Positions 10,122 to 64,000 of a DNA stretch of 64,000 bases are shown here, piece by piece; positions within the stretch are counted from its first letter, which is position 1; each line of letters opens with the position of its first letter. Under the pieces are notes generated by a model. The model was not told where the DNA came from and ran no database searches. It was given only the letters and a program-made list of their open reading frames with translations. Source of the DNA: Azospirillum brasilense (GTDB taxonomy: Bacteria > Pseudomonadota > Alphaproteobacteria > Azospirillales > Azospirillaceae); assembly GCF_007827795.1 (NCBI RefSeq), contig NZ_VITI01000016.1, forward strand, positions 1-64,000, read 5' to 3'. A program made the translations under genes and the position numbers.

Positions 10122-10976
10122 TCACACGCGCTTCCACCCCAGGACACAGCGTTCCACGCCGCCCAGATCCCGGAAGACGCCCGCCGGTTCCAGCCCGGCG
10201 GCGGCCAGCAGCCCCGTCACGTCCGCCGCCTGGCCTTGCCCGACCTCCAGCCCGGCCAGACCGCCCGGCTGGAGCAGGTCCGGAAGCTGGGAGGCGATGA
10301 TCCGGTAAGCGTTCAGCCCGTCCGCGCCGCCGTCCAGCGCGCGCAGCGGGTCGTGCTCCCGCACCTCCGGGTCCAGGGCGGCGATGTCGGCGCTGGGGAT
10401 GTAGGGCGGGTTGGAGACGACGACGGCGAACCGCTCGGCCAGCCCGGCGCCCCAGTTCCCGGTCTGGAAGCGCGCCCGCTCCGCCAGCCCGTTGCGCGCC
10501 GCGTTTTCCGTGGCGGCGGCCACCGCGCCGGGGCTGAGATCGACGCCAAGGCCGCTGGCGTTGGGCAGTTCGGCCAGCAGGGCCAGCAGGATGCAACCGG
10601 TGCCGGTGCCGAGGTCGAGCAGCCGCAGCGGCGCGTTGCGGTCGGACAGGGCCTTCAGCACCGCTTCCACCAGCGTCTCGGTGTCGGGACGGGGTTCGAG
10701 GGTGTCGGGGGTGAGGGCGAGGTCGATCGTCCAGAACTCACGATGGCCCAGGATGCGCCCCACCGGCTCCCGCGCCGCCCGCCGCTCGACCAGGGCGAGG
10801 AGGCGCGCGGTGTCCGGTTCGGGCACGGGGTCGTTGGCCCGGGTGAACAGGTCATGGCGGGTGACGCCCAGCGCGTGCTCGACCAGAAGGCGCGCGTCGA
10901 GGTCGGGGGTGTCCACCCCGGCCTCGCGCAGGCGGGCCTCGGCGGTGCGGCGGAGTTGGTGAAGCGTGATGGTCAT
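10122..10976 (-). CDS. prmC: Peptide chain release factor N5-glutamine methyltransferase PrmC
   Basis: Cytosolic SAM-dependent enzyme of 284 aa that methylates the Gln of the GGQ motif in RF1 and RF2. The N-terminal helical domain (to about 75) contacts the release factor. The Rossmann core carries 'LLDLGTGTGCILLALL' for SAM and the catalytic NPPY in 'VVVSNPPYIP'. Its partner gene prfA lies upstream on the same strand but is separated by 516 bp holding repeat copy B and an opposite-strand DUF559 gene. The repeat ends only 4 nt before the ATG, so its GGTGGGGGC arm occupies the ribosome-binding position. Confidence 0.96.
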   Translation of the reverse strand: MTITLHQLRRTAEARLREAGVDTPDLDARLLVEHALGVTRHDLFTRANDPVPEPDTARLLALVERRAAREPVGRILGHREFWTIDLALTPDTLEPRPDTETLVEAVLKALSDRNAPLRLLDLGTGTGCILLALLAELPNASGLGVDLSPGAVAAATENAARNGLAERARFQTGNWGAGLAERFAVVVSNPPYIPSADIAALDPEVREHDPLRALDGGADGLNAYRIIASQLPDLLQPGGLAGLEVGQGQAADVTGLLAAAGLEPAGVFRDLGGVERCVLGWKRV

Positions 10977-10980
10977 GAAT

Positions 10981-11100
10981 TGCCCCCACCCTCCCCATGC
11001 GCTGCATGGGTCCCCTCCCTCCCCCGCTGCGCAGGGGAGGGCGATTGATGCGACGTCCTATCCCCTCCCCTGCGCAGCGGGGGAGGGTTAGGGTGGGGGC
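10981..11100. repeat. GC-rich palindromic repeat, copy B (compound form)
   Basis: A 120-bp element running from TGCCCCCACC to GGGTGGGGGC. It contains two mutually inverted blocks, CCCTCCCCCGCTGCGCAGG near 11018 and its reverse complement near 11063, around a central spacer, plus an extra segment at about 10997-11013. It lies between the prmC start and the DUF559 gene, 22 bp from the latter's ATG. Confidence 0.85.
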
Positions 11101-11122
11101 CCGTGTTGCCACACGAGCGCCT

Positions 11123-11482
11123 ATGCGGAACTCCAAGCTGAAATACCGCGCTCGCGATCTGCGCACTCAGCCCACCGACGCCGAACGGGCGCTCTGGCGC
11201 CAATTGCGCAGCGAACAGCTCAGCGGATGGAAGTTTCGTCGCCAGCACCCCATTCCCCCCTACATTGCTGATTTCGCCTGCATCCAGGCCAAGCTGGTTG
11301 TCGAAGTCGACGGCGGCCAGCACGCCGACTCCGCCTACGACTCCGCTCGGGACGAGCATCTGCAGCAACACGGCTGGAGGGTCCTGCGCTTCTGGAACAA
11401 CGACGTGCTGAACAACCCGGAGGGCGTGACGGCGACGATCCTCGCCGCCATCGGCGGGCCGAAACTCCCGGAGGGGAATTAA
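11123..11482 (+). CDS. DUF559 endonuclease-like protein (Vsr/PD-(D/E)XK type)
   Basis: Solitary protein of 119 aa. The N-terminal 'ARDLRTQPTDAERALWRQLR' is the family signature. A nuclease-like core follows: 'RRQHPIPPYIADF' (Asp50), 'LVVEVDGGQH' (Glu61, Asp63, Gln66, His67) and 'GWRVLRFWNNDVL'. These match the Vsr-like, PD-(D/E)XK-related fold assigned to DUF559, so a DNA endonuclease is likely by family but unproven. ATG 11123 is chosen since the signature starts 10 residues later. The gene is on the strand opposite to hemA-prfA and prmC, splitting that conserved run, and is bordered by repeat copy B. This looks like an insertion. Confidence 0.9.
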   Translation: MRNSKLKYRARDLRTQPTDAERALWRQLRSEQLSGWKFRRQHPIPPYIADFACIQAKLVVEVDGGQHADSAYDSARDEHLQQHGWRVLRFWNNDVLNNPEGVTATILAAIGGPKLPEGN

Positions 11483-11492
11483 ATGACCCGCC

Positions 11493-12566
11493 CTATTGCA
11501 GTTCCGACAGCCGCGCCGCCTCGTCCTCGGCCGTCAGCGCGTCGATCAACTCGTCCAGCGCTTCACCGGCCATCACCTTCTCGATCTTGTAGAGCGTCAG
11601 GTTGATGCGGTGGTCGGTCACCCGGCCCTGTGGGAAGTTGTAGGTGCGGATGCGCTCCGAGCGGTCGCCGGAGCCCACCTGGCTCTTGCGGTCGGCGGCA
11701 CGGGCCTTGTCCTTCTCGGCACGCTCCCGCTCGTAGAGGCGGGCGCGCAGCACCTTCAGGGCCTTGGCCTTGTTCTTGTGCTGGCTCTTCTCGTCCTGCT
11801 GGCTGACGACCAAGCCGGTCGGCAGGTGGGTGATGCGCACCGCGCTGTCCGTCGTGTTCACCGACTGGCCGCCGGGACCGCTGGAGCGGAACACGTCGAT
11901 GCGCAGGTCCTTCTCGTCGATGTGGATGTCCACCTCCTCCGCCTCGGGCAGCACCGCGACGGTGGCGGCGGAGGTGTGGATGCGCCCCTGGGTCTCGGTC
12001 GCCGGGACGCGCTGCACGCGGTGGACCCCCGATTCGAACTTCAGCCGAGCGAACACGTTGCGGCCGGTGATGTTGGCGATGGCCTCCTTGTAGCCGCCGA
12101 TGCCGGTCTCGCTGACCTCCATCGTCTCGAACCGCCAACCCTGAAGCCCGGCGTAGCGGCGGTACATCTCGAACAGCTCCGCGGCGAACAGGGCCGCCTC
12201 GTCGCCGCCGGTGCCGGCGCGCACCTCCAGGATGGCGTTCTTCTCGTCCGCCTCGTCCTTGGGCAGCAGGGAAATCTGCACCCGGCGCTCCAGGGCGGGG
12301 ATGCGGCGGGTGAGATCGCCGAACTCCTCCTCGGCCAGCGCCTTCATGTCGGCGTCACCCGCCGGGTCGGCGATCATGCCGGCGAGGTCGGCGGCCTCGG
12401 CCTTCGCCTTCTTCAGCTCTCCGATGGCCTCGGCCACCGGGGTTAGGTCGGCATATTCCTTCGACAGCCGGGCGAAGTCCGCCGGGTCCACCGTCCCCGC
12501 CGCCATCGCGTCCCGCAGCTCGTCATGGCGGGCCACGACCCTATTGAACTTCTCGTCCAGGCTCAC
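11493..12566 (-). CDS. prfA: Peptide chain release factor 1
   Basis: Class I release factor of 357 aa that reads UAA and UAG and triggers peptide release in the ribosomal A site. The GGQ motif is in '[18 protein letters not shown]', flanked by the usual RF1 context and followed by the conserved '[15 protein letters not shown]'. The coiled N-terminal domain is complete. The start is taken as GTG 12566, where alignment to other RF1 proteins begins and an AAGGA precedes by about 9 nt. The frame is open to an ATG at 12611 that would add 15 residues of hemA-overlapping sequence. It overlaps the hemA 3' end by 26 nt, implying cotranscription and coupling. Confidence 0.95.
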
Positions 12567-29833: not shown

Positions 29834-29920
29834 TGGTGCCCAGGAGAAGACTCGAACTTCCACGACATTTCTGCCACAGGTACCTGAAACCTGCGCGTCT
29901 ACCAATTCCGCCACCTGGGC
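29834..29920 (-). tRNA. tRNA-Leu (anticodon CAG)
   Basis: An 87-nt gene including an encoded CCA (29834-29836). The acceptor stem GCCCAGG / CCTGGGC is perfect. The D-arm region is GGCGGAATTGGTAGACGC; the anticodon stem CAGGT / ACCTG encloses the loop TTCAGGT, with anticodon CAG reading CUG. The long class II variable arm (TGGCAGAAATGTCG) and the T-loop TTCGAGT identify it as leucine tRNA. It is probably a single-gene transcript. Confidence 0.97.
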
Positions 29921-49695: not shown

Positions 49696-49780
49696 GCCCC
49701 CACCCAACCCTCCCCCGCTTTCGCAGTGGAGGGCTAAACTCCTCCCCCTGCGCAGCGGGGGGAGGTCGGGAGGGGGGCAA
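49696..49780. repeat. GC-rich palindromic repeat, copy C (long form)
   Basis: An 85-bp element running GCCCCCACCCAACCC ... GAGGGGGGCAA, with two internal blocks: CCCTCCCCCGCTTTCGCAG and CCTCCCCCTGCGCAGCGGG. It lies between the convergent DUF6494 and SDR genes and may stop both transcripts. Its right arm has drifted from the consensus. Confidence 0.8.
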
Positions 49781-55619: not shown

Positions 55620-55711
55620 GTCCGCACACCTTTTGCAACGCCAACAAACTGTTGCCGGAGCAAGCGGTGTCTGGATGGAATGGGGGTACGCCGTGCCGCC
55701 CTTCAGTCCCG

Positions 55712-55817
55712 TCCCTACGCCGGTATGACCCGGATCAGGTTCGATGGGTCACCGCGTTGTCCGGATGAAAGCGCCGGACCGGCGGAGTCTCAGCCTCCTA
55801 GCGAGGCCCCCCAGGGA
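55712..55817 (-). promoter_or_regulatory. TPP riboswitch (THI element)
   Basis: On the minus strand the P1 helix pairs TCCCT (55813-55817) with AGGGA (55712-55716). The invariant CTGAGA lies at 55788-55793, and the second conserved half reads ACCTGATCCGGGT followed by ATACCGGCGTAGGGA. An enlarged P3 arm (CCGGTCCGG.../...CCGGAC) is present. It leads the luxE-like gene with a 92-nt expression platform lacking a T-run terminator, so control may act on translation. High TPP should shut the operon off. Confidence 0.95.
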
Positions 55818-55880
55818 ACATTCGCAAGCTAAGGGACCGGCCCCCGCCCGTCAAGCCGGTCGGGTTCAAAGAGATCGGGT

Positions 55881-58866: not shown

Positions 58867-58920
58867 GTCGCGTCCTTCCCTAGAGAGTGTGCGCTTTGCG
58901 GGGTGCTGCGTCGGGACACC

Positions 58921-59009
58921 CTTGCCCCCACCCCGGCCCTCCCCCGCTTCGCGGGGGAGGGAGAATTGTCCCCTCCCCTGCGGCAGCGGGGGAGGGTTAG
59001 GGTGGGGCA
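58921..59009. repeat. GC-rich palindromic repeat, copy D (long form)
   Basis: An 89-bp element, CTTGCCCCCACCCC to GGGTGGGGCA, with a perfect inner hairpin CCCTCCCCCGC-TTC-GCGGGGGAGGG and a second block CCCTCCCCTGCGGCAGCGGG. It sits inside the formate dehydrogenase operon, between the iron-sulfur and cytochrome b subunit genes, so it could tune the expression of the latter. Confidence 0.85.
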
Positions 59010-63645: not shown

Positions 63646-63750
63646 GCCCCCACCCTAACCCTCCCCCGCTTTCGCAGGGGAGGGAACTGCCGCCGCATCG
63701 CGATCATCTCCCTCCCCCGCCCAGCGGGGGAGGGTTGGGGTGGGGGCAAG
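63646..63750. repeat. GC-rich palindromic repeat, copy E (long form)
   Basis: A 105-bp element, GCCCCCACCCTAACCC to GGGTGGGGGCAAG (with one base change), containing CCCTCCCCCGCTTTCGCAGG and CCCTCCCCCGCCCAGCGGGG with its partner GGGGGAGGG. It overlaps the 3' end of the DUF3306 gene, whose final residues are encoded by it. Confidence 0.85.
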
Positions 63751-64000
63751 ACTGTCGGTGGGGGCAAGACCCTCACTTTCCTCAGACTTAGTCGTGTCAG
63801 CGACCACAACCTCCTCCGGCTTCTCCTCCTCCGGCGGTTTCTCGTCGGTGGCGATGCGGTCCAGCAGGTCGGCGATGCGGTCGGTGGCGAGCAGCTTGCC
63901 GTAACCGGGGGCATTGCAGTCCCAGTCATACTCGGCGAAGCCGCGGAAGCCCGCGATCACCGGGTCGCTGGTCCAGGCCTTGCGCAGGGCCAGCCGTTTC
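63655..64000 (-). CDS. DUF3306 protein, partial (5' end beyond window)
   Basis: C-terminal part of a protein running off the right edge. Translating the edge gives 'LRKAWTSDPVIAGFRGFAEYDWDCNAPGYG', in pieces the exact hallmark of DUF3306, a family that accompanies formate dehydrogenase clusters with DUF3305. The domain is followed by an acidic 'EKPPEEEKPEEVVVADTTKSEE' linker region and a tail of about 30 residues that is encoded by repeat copy E (APTPTLPRWAGEGDD). So the repeat has been read into the protein and supplies its stop codon at 63655. It belongs to the formate dehydrogenase gene neighbourhood. Confidence 0.85.
   Translation of the reverse strand, partial: KRLALRKAWTSDPVIAGFRGFAEYDWDCNAPGYGKLLATDRIADLLDRIATDEKPPEEEKPEEVVVADTTKSEESEGLAPTDSLAPTPTLPRWAGEGDDRDAAAVPSPAKAGEG

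Follow-up and report, generated by a model that had tools for sequence, protein, structure and literature searches.

Why should a gene encoding a domain of unknown function (DUF559) lie, together with a compound palindrome, between prmC and prfA and on the opposite strand to both? The question is raised by a locus near the start of contig 16 of the 6.24 Mb genome of Azospirillum brasilense, the first 64,000 nucleotides of that contig, referred to here as the window, having been analysed; the A. brasilense sequence record bears no annotation at this locus. A first-pass annotation of these letters had described a hemA-prfA-prmC gene order with such a gene and palindrome wedged into it, had likened the arrangement to REP palindromes and their RAYT transposases, and had inferred that DUF559 proteins could drive the spread of the repeats; empty sites in relatives and an enrichment of repeats around other DUF559 genes were named as checks. 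The gene order was correct and the layout was borne out by ORF calls and profile matching. Both prmC (10122–10976; PrmC_N and MTS domains) and prfA (11493–12566; PCRF and RF-1 domains) are encoded on the minus strand, the start codon of the former ending at 10976 and the stop codon of the latter occupying 11493–11495, and the intervening 516 nt hold a plus-strand gene (11123–11482) for a PD-(D/E)XK nuclease of 119 aa (DUF559, PF04480; Pfam E 8.8e-41), the likely start of which is the ATG at 11123 with the stop at 11482.

The compound palindrome (10980–11103) begins 3–4 nt from the prmC start, as had been noted. It consists of an outer tail, TTGCCCCCACCC, in which a small hairpin (CCCCATGCGCTGCATGGGG) is embedded (10980–11016, assigned from sequence); a first hairpin, CCCTCCCCCGCTGCGCAGGGGAGGG (11017–11041, from core-hairpin matches and folding); a spacer of the 20–21 nt class (11042–11062); a second hairpin, CCCTCCCCTGCGCAGCGGGGGAGGG, inverted relative to the first (11063–11087, from sequence and folding); and a type-A tail, TTAGGGTGGGGGC, which faces the nuclease gene (11088–11103) and of which an exact-tail search found 60 copies in the genome. 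Read outward from the gene, the cassette doublet thus runs from the tail TTAGGGTGGGGGC through a hairpin, a spacer of 20–21 nt and an inverted hairpin to a further tail. Folded as DNA, the palindrome yields −64.5 kcal/mol compared to −31.0 ± 3.0 kcal/mol for dinucleotide shuffles (z −11.3), and the outer tail TTGCCCCCACCC with a comparable inner hairpin recurs at the prfA/prmC site of two further genomes (G009 and G031). An Rfam search returned no structured-RNA match at the repeats. The prmC-prfA gap of the window is one type-A nuclease-repeat cassette. The DUF559 frame remains open upstream across the palindrome (10997–11122, from an ATG at 10997), so that translation of the repeat could extend the protein at its N-terminus. 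Elsewhere in the window, a TPP riboswitch (55694–55823) and a tRNA-Leu (CAG) gene (29834–29920), both on the minus strand, are ordinary.

The encoded protein matches PF04480 with 138.6 bits (gathering cut-off 20.6) over profile positions 2–108 of 109. Residues E21, W25, F38, R40, Q41, D50, E61, D63, G64, H67 and R89 are invariant in 60 homologues, and include the catalytic-type residues of a PD-(D/E)XK-type active site (E21, D50, E61, D63 and H67). The predicted structure (pLDDT 85) matched 3hrl from Neisseria (42% identity) and, in a Foldseek search, the I-Bth0305I domain (PDB 3r3p; E 6.3e-5, TM 0.73 by target length); the TM score against Vsr was about 0.5 by target length. The gene is under purifying selection (dN/dS 0.05–0.19) and encodes a conserved PD-(D/E)XK nuclease of the Vsr/EDxHD-like kind, its cleavage and binding activities being inferred. 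The nearest NCBIfam model, PRK09767 (a DUF559 family), was matched with 118 bits against a cut-off of 218, while the Vsr model TIGR00632 gave 22.3 bits, far under its cut-off of 97.85. The domain match spans residues 5–109, leaving no additional DNA-binding region, and no cytosine methyltransferase is adjacent, the neighbours being prmC, prfA and hemA. Membership of a defence system was rejected, as only trivial PADLOC scores were obtained.

The hairpins belong to a dispersed family, the unit of which is TTGCCCCCACCCTAA followed by a CCCTCCCC hairpin; the core pattern CCCTCCCC-N3-13-GGGGAGGG has 173 matches in the genome, and its reversed control two. Of 34 exact hairpins on contig C1, 18 are paired at a distance of 7–25 nt, indicating that inverted doublets are a standard form, and doublet spacers fall mainly at 8–9 and 20–25 nt. 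The window carries further copies, namely a type-A repeat that is a singlet here and a doublet in five close relatives (2391–2444), a partly decayed doublet that is missing in relative G003 (about 49696–49778), a doublet in the fdoH-fdoI gap (58909–59008) that serves below as an independent orthologous test site, and a type-A doublet (63646–63754). At the window sites other than fdoH/fdoI, the doublets of close relatives vary in loops, spacers and tails within aligned flanks that are 92–98% identical. No target-site duplication was seen in comparisons of close relatives at fdoH/fdoI or at window positions 49.7k and 55.9k, where the borders were too worn for a decision.

A single-protein search of a collection of genome contigs yielded 16 loci. 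Only two DUF559 genes are present in this genome. The second separates ruvA from ruvC and is accompanied by a compound palindrome that belongs to another family (CCCTCTCCCC type). Since both genes were thus found wedged between genes that are normally neighbours, each with a palindrome, a systematic test was undertaken, for which DUF559 loci were sampled from 45 congeneric, 289 alphaproteobacterial and 397 phylum genomes and scored for perfect hairpins (arm of at least 9, loop of 3–12) within 300 bp of the gene, other ORFs of the same loci, picked by a longest-ORF rule, serving as controls. Such hairpins accompanied 64 of 81 DUF559 genes in Azospirillum (neighbouring ORFs 0/52), 89 of 105 in other Alphaproteobacteria (11/73) and 41 of 45 in other classes (12/35), and were found on both sides of 23, 48 and 24 DUF559 genes, respectively, compared to 0, 2 and 1 controls. 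Hairpin density was 6–7 per kb in the first 100 bp and 0.1–0.3 per kb past 600 bp. The enrichment of repeats around other DUF559 genes that had been proposed as a check is strong at all three levels sampled, from Azospirillum to classes of the phylum beyond the Alphaproteobacteria. The sequences of the flanking hairpins depend on lineage, being mostly of CCCTCYCC types, with CCCCTCTTTGC types in genomes of 40–42% GC, and the flanking unit is often a C-rich tail, a TAA, TGA or CAA joint and a hairpin. The gene is bracketed by units in inverted orientation, in which a TAA/TGA-like joint connects an asymmetric C-rich tail with a hairpin; copies of this unit are scattered across the genome, often in the form of inverted doublets.

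The prfA/prmC junction was occupied in 29 of the 45 Azospirillum genomes, leaving 16 relatives with the empty sites that had been called for. In seven of these 16, prfA and prmC overlap or are at most 21 nt apart, while four carry one tail-less solo hairpin and nothing else, which looks as if a cassette had collapsed to a single hairpin. Several occupied genomes have hairpin and tail on one side and their inverse on the other, and so meet the insertion-sequence criterion of terminal inverted repeats; clean ends in the order hairpin-tail-gene-tail-hairpin are seen in G012, G024, G033, G034 and G036. Carrier genomes have 1–5 DUF559 cassettes, mostly at two recurrent sites, and three repeat types were distinguished: A (tail GCCCCCACCCTRACCC) and B (tail GCCCCCTCCCTRACCC) at prfA/prmC, and C at ruvA/ruvC. 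In the protein tree, A and B stand apart from C, and B forms one clade (support 95/95); most DUF559 genes at other sites group with proteins whose repeat type matches theirs, and two loci with CCCTCTCC hairpins (L105 and L110) fall on the A/B side. As types A and B occur at one genomic site, position cannot explain the match between protein and repeat. One prfA/prmC locus (L036; G042, C13:102401–102712) has a DUF559 gene with an in-frame TGA and, on its two sides, repeats of different type (A and B), and is possibly a decaying hybrid cassette.

Copy numbers of A and B per genome, determined by exact tail searches, follow the resident cassette. Genomes with a prfA/prmC cassette contain 36–182 A and B tails and those without it 0–8, with no overlap among the 45 genomes; presence of the cassette coincides with a count above 10 in 45 of 45. 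A minimum of eight changes in cassette presence is needed on the prfA tree. The supported independent pairs, of which there are four, all agree, a number too small for a formal test at the 5% level. Genomes with a B cassette are rich in B repeats and those with an A cassette are, on average, rich in A (difference in A share, p 3.5e-4). Sister genomes on supported branches bear different cassette types (G004/G005 and G009/G027), from which it follows that cassettes replace one another at prfA/prmC. Some repeats outlive the nuclease or cassette of their type, as with the 58 C-type hairpins of G013, which lacks DUF559, and the B copies in A genomes.

The fdoH/fdoI doublet lies about 47 kb from the window cassette. 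Of 26 cassette genomes, 20 have an A or B element at the orthologous position, whereas the 11 cassette-less genomes have none (p 1.4e-5, or p 2e-4 when a degenerate relic in G001 is included), and among pure doublets the type matches that of the resident cassette in 14 of 16 cases (p 0.013). The two mismatches are G034, a B-rich genome with an A cassette and a B doublet, and G044, which has a B cassette and an A doublet. Mosaic doublets with a B left half and an A right half occur in G003, G004 and G008, all with an A cassette and yet with B repeats still outnumbering A. Judging from these sequences, we read the pattern as a putative, lagging replacement of repeats by those of the resident type. 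Of the borders at fdoH/fdoI, the right one alone (AAGTAAAG) is clean, and no exact insertion footprint was established. In two genomes (G031, locus L211; G027, locus L207) a CGTC-type palindrome (CCGTCATCCCCGC...) takes the place of the A/B doublet, the gap there being used by an unrelated repeat family.

Bracketing by inverted units, cognate subtypes of nuclease and repeat, coupled abundance, replacement of type at a remote site and a conserved active site are thus all observed, each nuclease subtype being paired with its own repeat subtype and both the abundance and the type of repeats following the resident cassette. Given that, within Azospirillum, repeat families rise, switch type and vanish with the nuclease, DUF559 is probably their long-missed driver. 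We consider it probable that the DUF559 nuclease and the palindromes beside its gene act as partners in a system resembling a REPtron (REP plus RAYT), in which a Vsr/EDxHD-type PD-(D/E)XK nuclease takes the place of the RAYT and drives the repeats; the driving role is inferred, no binding, cleavage or transposition having been observed. The nuclease would recognise its cognate hairpin or doublet, perhaps as a cruciform or as single-stranded DNA of the lagging strand, and would nick or cut it. Repair from another copy could then create doublets at new intergenic sites, overwrite non-cognate repeats and allow whole cassettes to replace each other at one locus. Upon loss of the nuclease, the family would no longer be renewed and would decay, and a cassette might collapse to one hairpin. 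The inference that DUF559 drives the spread of the repeats is supported, neither of the two refuting conditions put forward with it having been fulfilled, as empty sites exist and repeats are enriched, while causation remains unproven, cleavage, binding and movement being inferred.

A perfect co-occurrence cannot in itself separate a nuclease that makes repeats from one that needs them. The palindromes may instead spread by replication slippage, host recombination or another transposase, with DUF559 being a free-standing homing parasite that inserts into or between hairpins and depends on them. Such a parasite would be in keeping with the homing endonuclease I-Bth0305I being among the nearest solved folds, with the replacement of one cassette type by another at one site, and with the single solo hairpin found at four empty sites, as against the two that surround the gene at occupied ones. 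EDxHD homing systems, like the DUF559 cassette, display occupied and empty sites, and I-Bth0305I and Vsr share the catalytic fold of the DUF559 protein; unlike these, however, the window protein has no DNA-binding extension, lies outside any intron or intein, scores below the Vsr cut-off and is tied to dispersed repeats. The near absence of A/B repeats from cassette-less genomes is also difficult to reconcile with such a parasite, as any separate agent of spread would have to be missing from just those genomes that lack the cassette, and repeats far from the cassette switch type along with it. A RAYT acting as a hidden mobiliser was rejected: the Y1 transposase family (PF01797, the RAYT superfamily) has no match in this genome and none in 34 of the 45 Azospirillum genomes, and its presence does not track repeat number, so that it does not explain the distribution. 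The scarcity of A/B repeats where the cassette is lacking and the remote switching of type favour the nuclease as driver, without proving it. Supported independent contrasts for the coupling number only four, and the repeats that outlive their nuclease also weigh against this reading; we nevertheless regard the homing parasite as unlikely.

Still less probable, in our estimation, is that DUF559 is a Vsr-like repair enzyme near which palindromes are kept for expression control or for the processing of hairpin-stalled forks, without being spread by it. The only functionally studied member of the domain family that was found, VsrA of Caulobacter (CCNA_02930), has been linked to the cytosine methyltransferase ScmA and to the SOS response, and interpreted as a mismatch-repair endonuclease working with that methylase, with palindromes unmentioned (PMC12907096); the DUF559 fold does resemble Vsr. 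An in-frame join of RuvC and DUF559 at 38 of 41 ruv-site loci is also consistent with a repair role. In contrast, the window gene lacks a DNA-cytosine methyltransferase neighbour, although linkage to one is not required in the VsrA case (PMC12907096), and its Vsr score is 22 bits against a 98-bit cut-off; moreover, the matching of repeat and nuclease subtypes, the tracking of copy number and the inverted bracketing would remain unexplained. As to the ruv site itself, the two domains share one stop-free frame (for example L002:1438–2547 in G000, C6) in which the palindrome is translated as a linker of variable length, and it is possible that a RuvC-DUF559 fusion has been kept in frame across the genus.

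That terminator-like hairpins and small accessory genes merely accumulate in the same intergenic gaps, so that their adjacency is meaningless, is barely tenable: hairpins are indeed intergenic and widespread, and in other classes a number of control ORFs also lie near one, but the neighbouring-ORF controls rule out chance or terminator-like hairpins, as two-sided hairpins occur at 95 of 231 DUF559 loci and at only three of 160 controls, the flanking pairs are inverted copies, and the repeat subtype tracks both protein clade and cassette presence.

Against this background the comparison with REP elements can be made specific. REPIN/RAYT systems comprise a solitary gene flanked by inverted palindromes, intergenic inverted doublets and several coexisting families, each with a gene of its own (PMC3116915, PMC3733652), and this layout of a flanked solitary gene, dispersed inverted doublets and family-specific genes is shared by the DUF559 system. 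The REPtron criteria of a gene flanked by inverted repeat pairs (71 inverted, 14 direct and 10 tied) and of dispersed inverted doublets at fixed spacing are met. Two others are not: RAYTs are HUH Y1 tyrosine transposases (PF01797) whereas the DUF559 enzyme is of the PD-(D/E)XK type, and REPs of RAYTs carry a GTAG tag where the DUF559 unit has a C-rich tail and a CCCTC-type hairpin. The proposed resemblance therefore holds for architecture and dynamics and fails for the enzyme family, since there is no relationship between DUF559 and the HUH Y1 transposases, a family missing from this genome; DUF559 genes and their repeats work like a REPtron but are not one. The CGTC-tagged REPs, which "apparently lack a dedicated transposase", are short palindromes, mostly head-to-head dimers, found in Alphaproteobacteria including Azospirillum lipoferum (PMC3733652). 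They are like the DUF559 repeats in being short, mostly dimeric and common in the same class, but differ in sequence, with CGTCAT-type stems. DUF559 as their missing partner was rejected, as no such hairpin was observed beside a DUF559 gene, and the present finding thus leaves the question of the CGTC transposase unsolved. In the open-access literature searched, which did not cover subscription journals, no report of a link between DUF559 and palindromes was found, nor is any mobiliser of CCCTCYCC-type palindromes on record there.

A comparable arrangement is seen in Escherichia coli K-12, where ycjD, a DUF559 gene between fabI and sapF, lies, as in the Azospirillum cassette, beside a dispersed unit, although only one flanking unit is recognisable. 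This unit, in the fabI-ycjD gap (L345:4041–4407), has the tail-TAA-hairpin form (CCCTCACCCTAACCCTCTCCCC-AGA-GGGGCGAGGGG) and is found in 5,376 of 5,426 E. coli genomes, the median number of places being 19. It may be the repeat called "box C", first noted next to envM (fabI); the wording "box C" was not found in the candidate literature. The ycjD gene is present in 3,365 genomes, while in 1,999 the regulator region of an efflux operon occupies the fabI-sapF gap instead; strain 20, for instance, has an RND efflux operon and a TetR regulator there and no ycjD (L347:6619–12264). Sampled strains bearing ycjD (EC31, O111:H8 7-15 45A and THO-008) hold 15–29 copies of the unit, compared to 15 in O157:H7 lineages without the gene and four in SCU-101, which has the efflux-type gap; across the sample, lineages with ycjD mostly have 15–32 copies and those without it 2–15. 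O157-type E. coli, with 13–15 copies and no ycjD, is a further instance of repeats outliving their nuclease. On the strength of this sample alone, without a full per-genome analysis, the link between ycjD and copy number would appear to be mostly at the level of lineages.

It may even be that the system represents a hitherto unrecognised, phylum-wide class of mobile repeats that includes those of ycjD, in which a PD-(D/E)XK nuclease acts as a gene-conversion (homing-like) engine on dispersed hairpins without a transposase, overwriting rival types while cassettes capture sites; we advance this wider reading only tentatively, at somewhat less than even confidence, and a categorically new mechanism is not excluded. 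Few short repeats are as common in these Pseudomonadota genomes as palindromes of the CCCTCYCC type. If DUF559 does drive them, the origin of a large share of intergenic hairpins, which serve as terminators, mRNA ends and typing targets, would become testable with one small gene, and ycjD of E. coli K-12 would make such a test feasible in a common laboratory strain. On the same condition, DUF559 would gain a concrete substrate, and a lifestyle like that of REP/RAYT would have arisen by convergence in a second enzyme superfamily.
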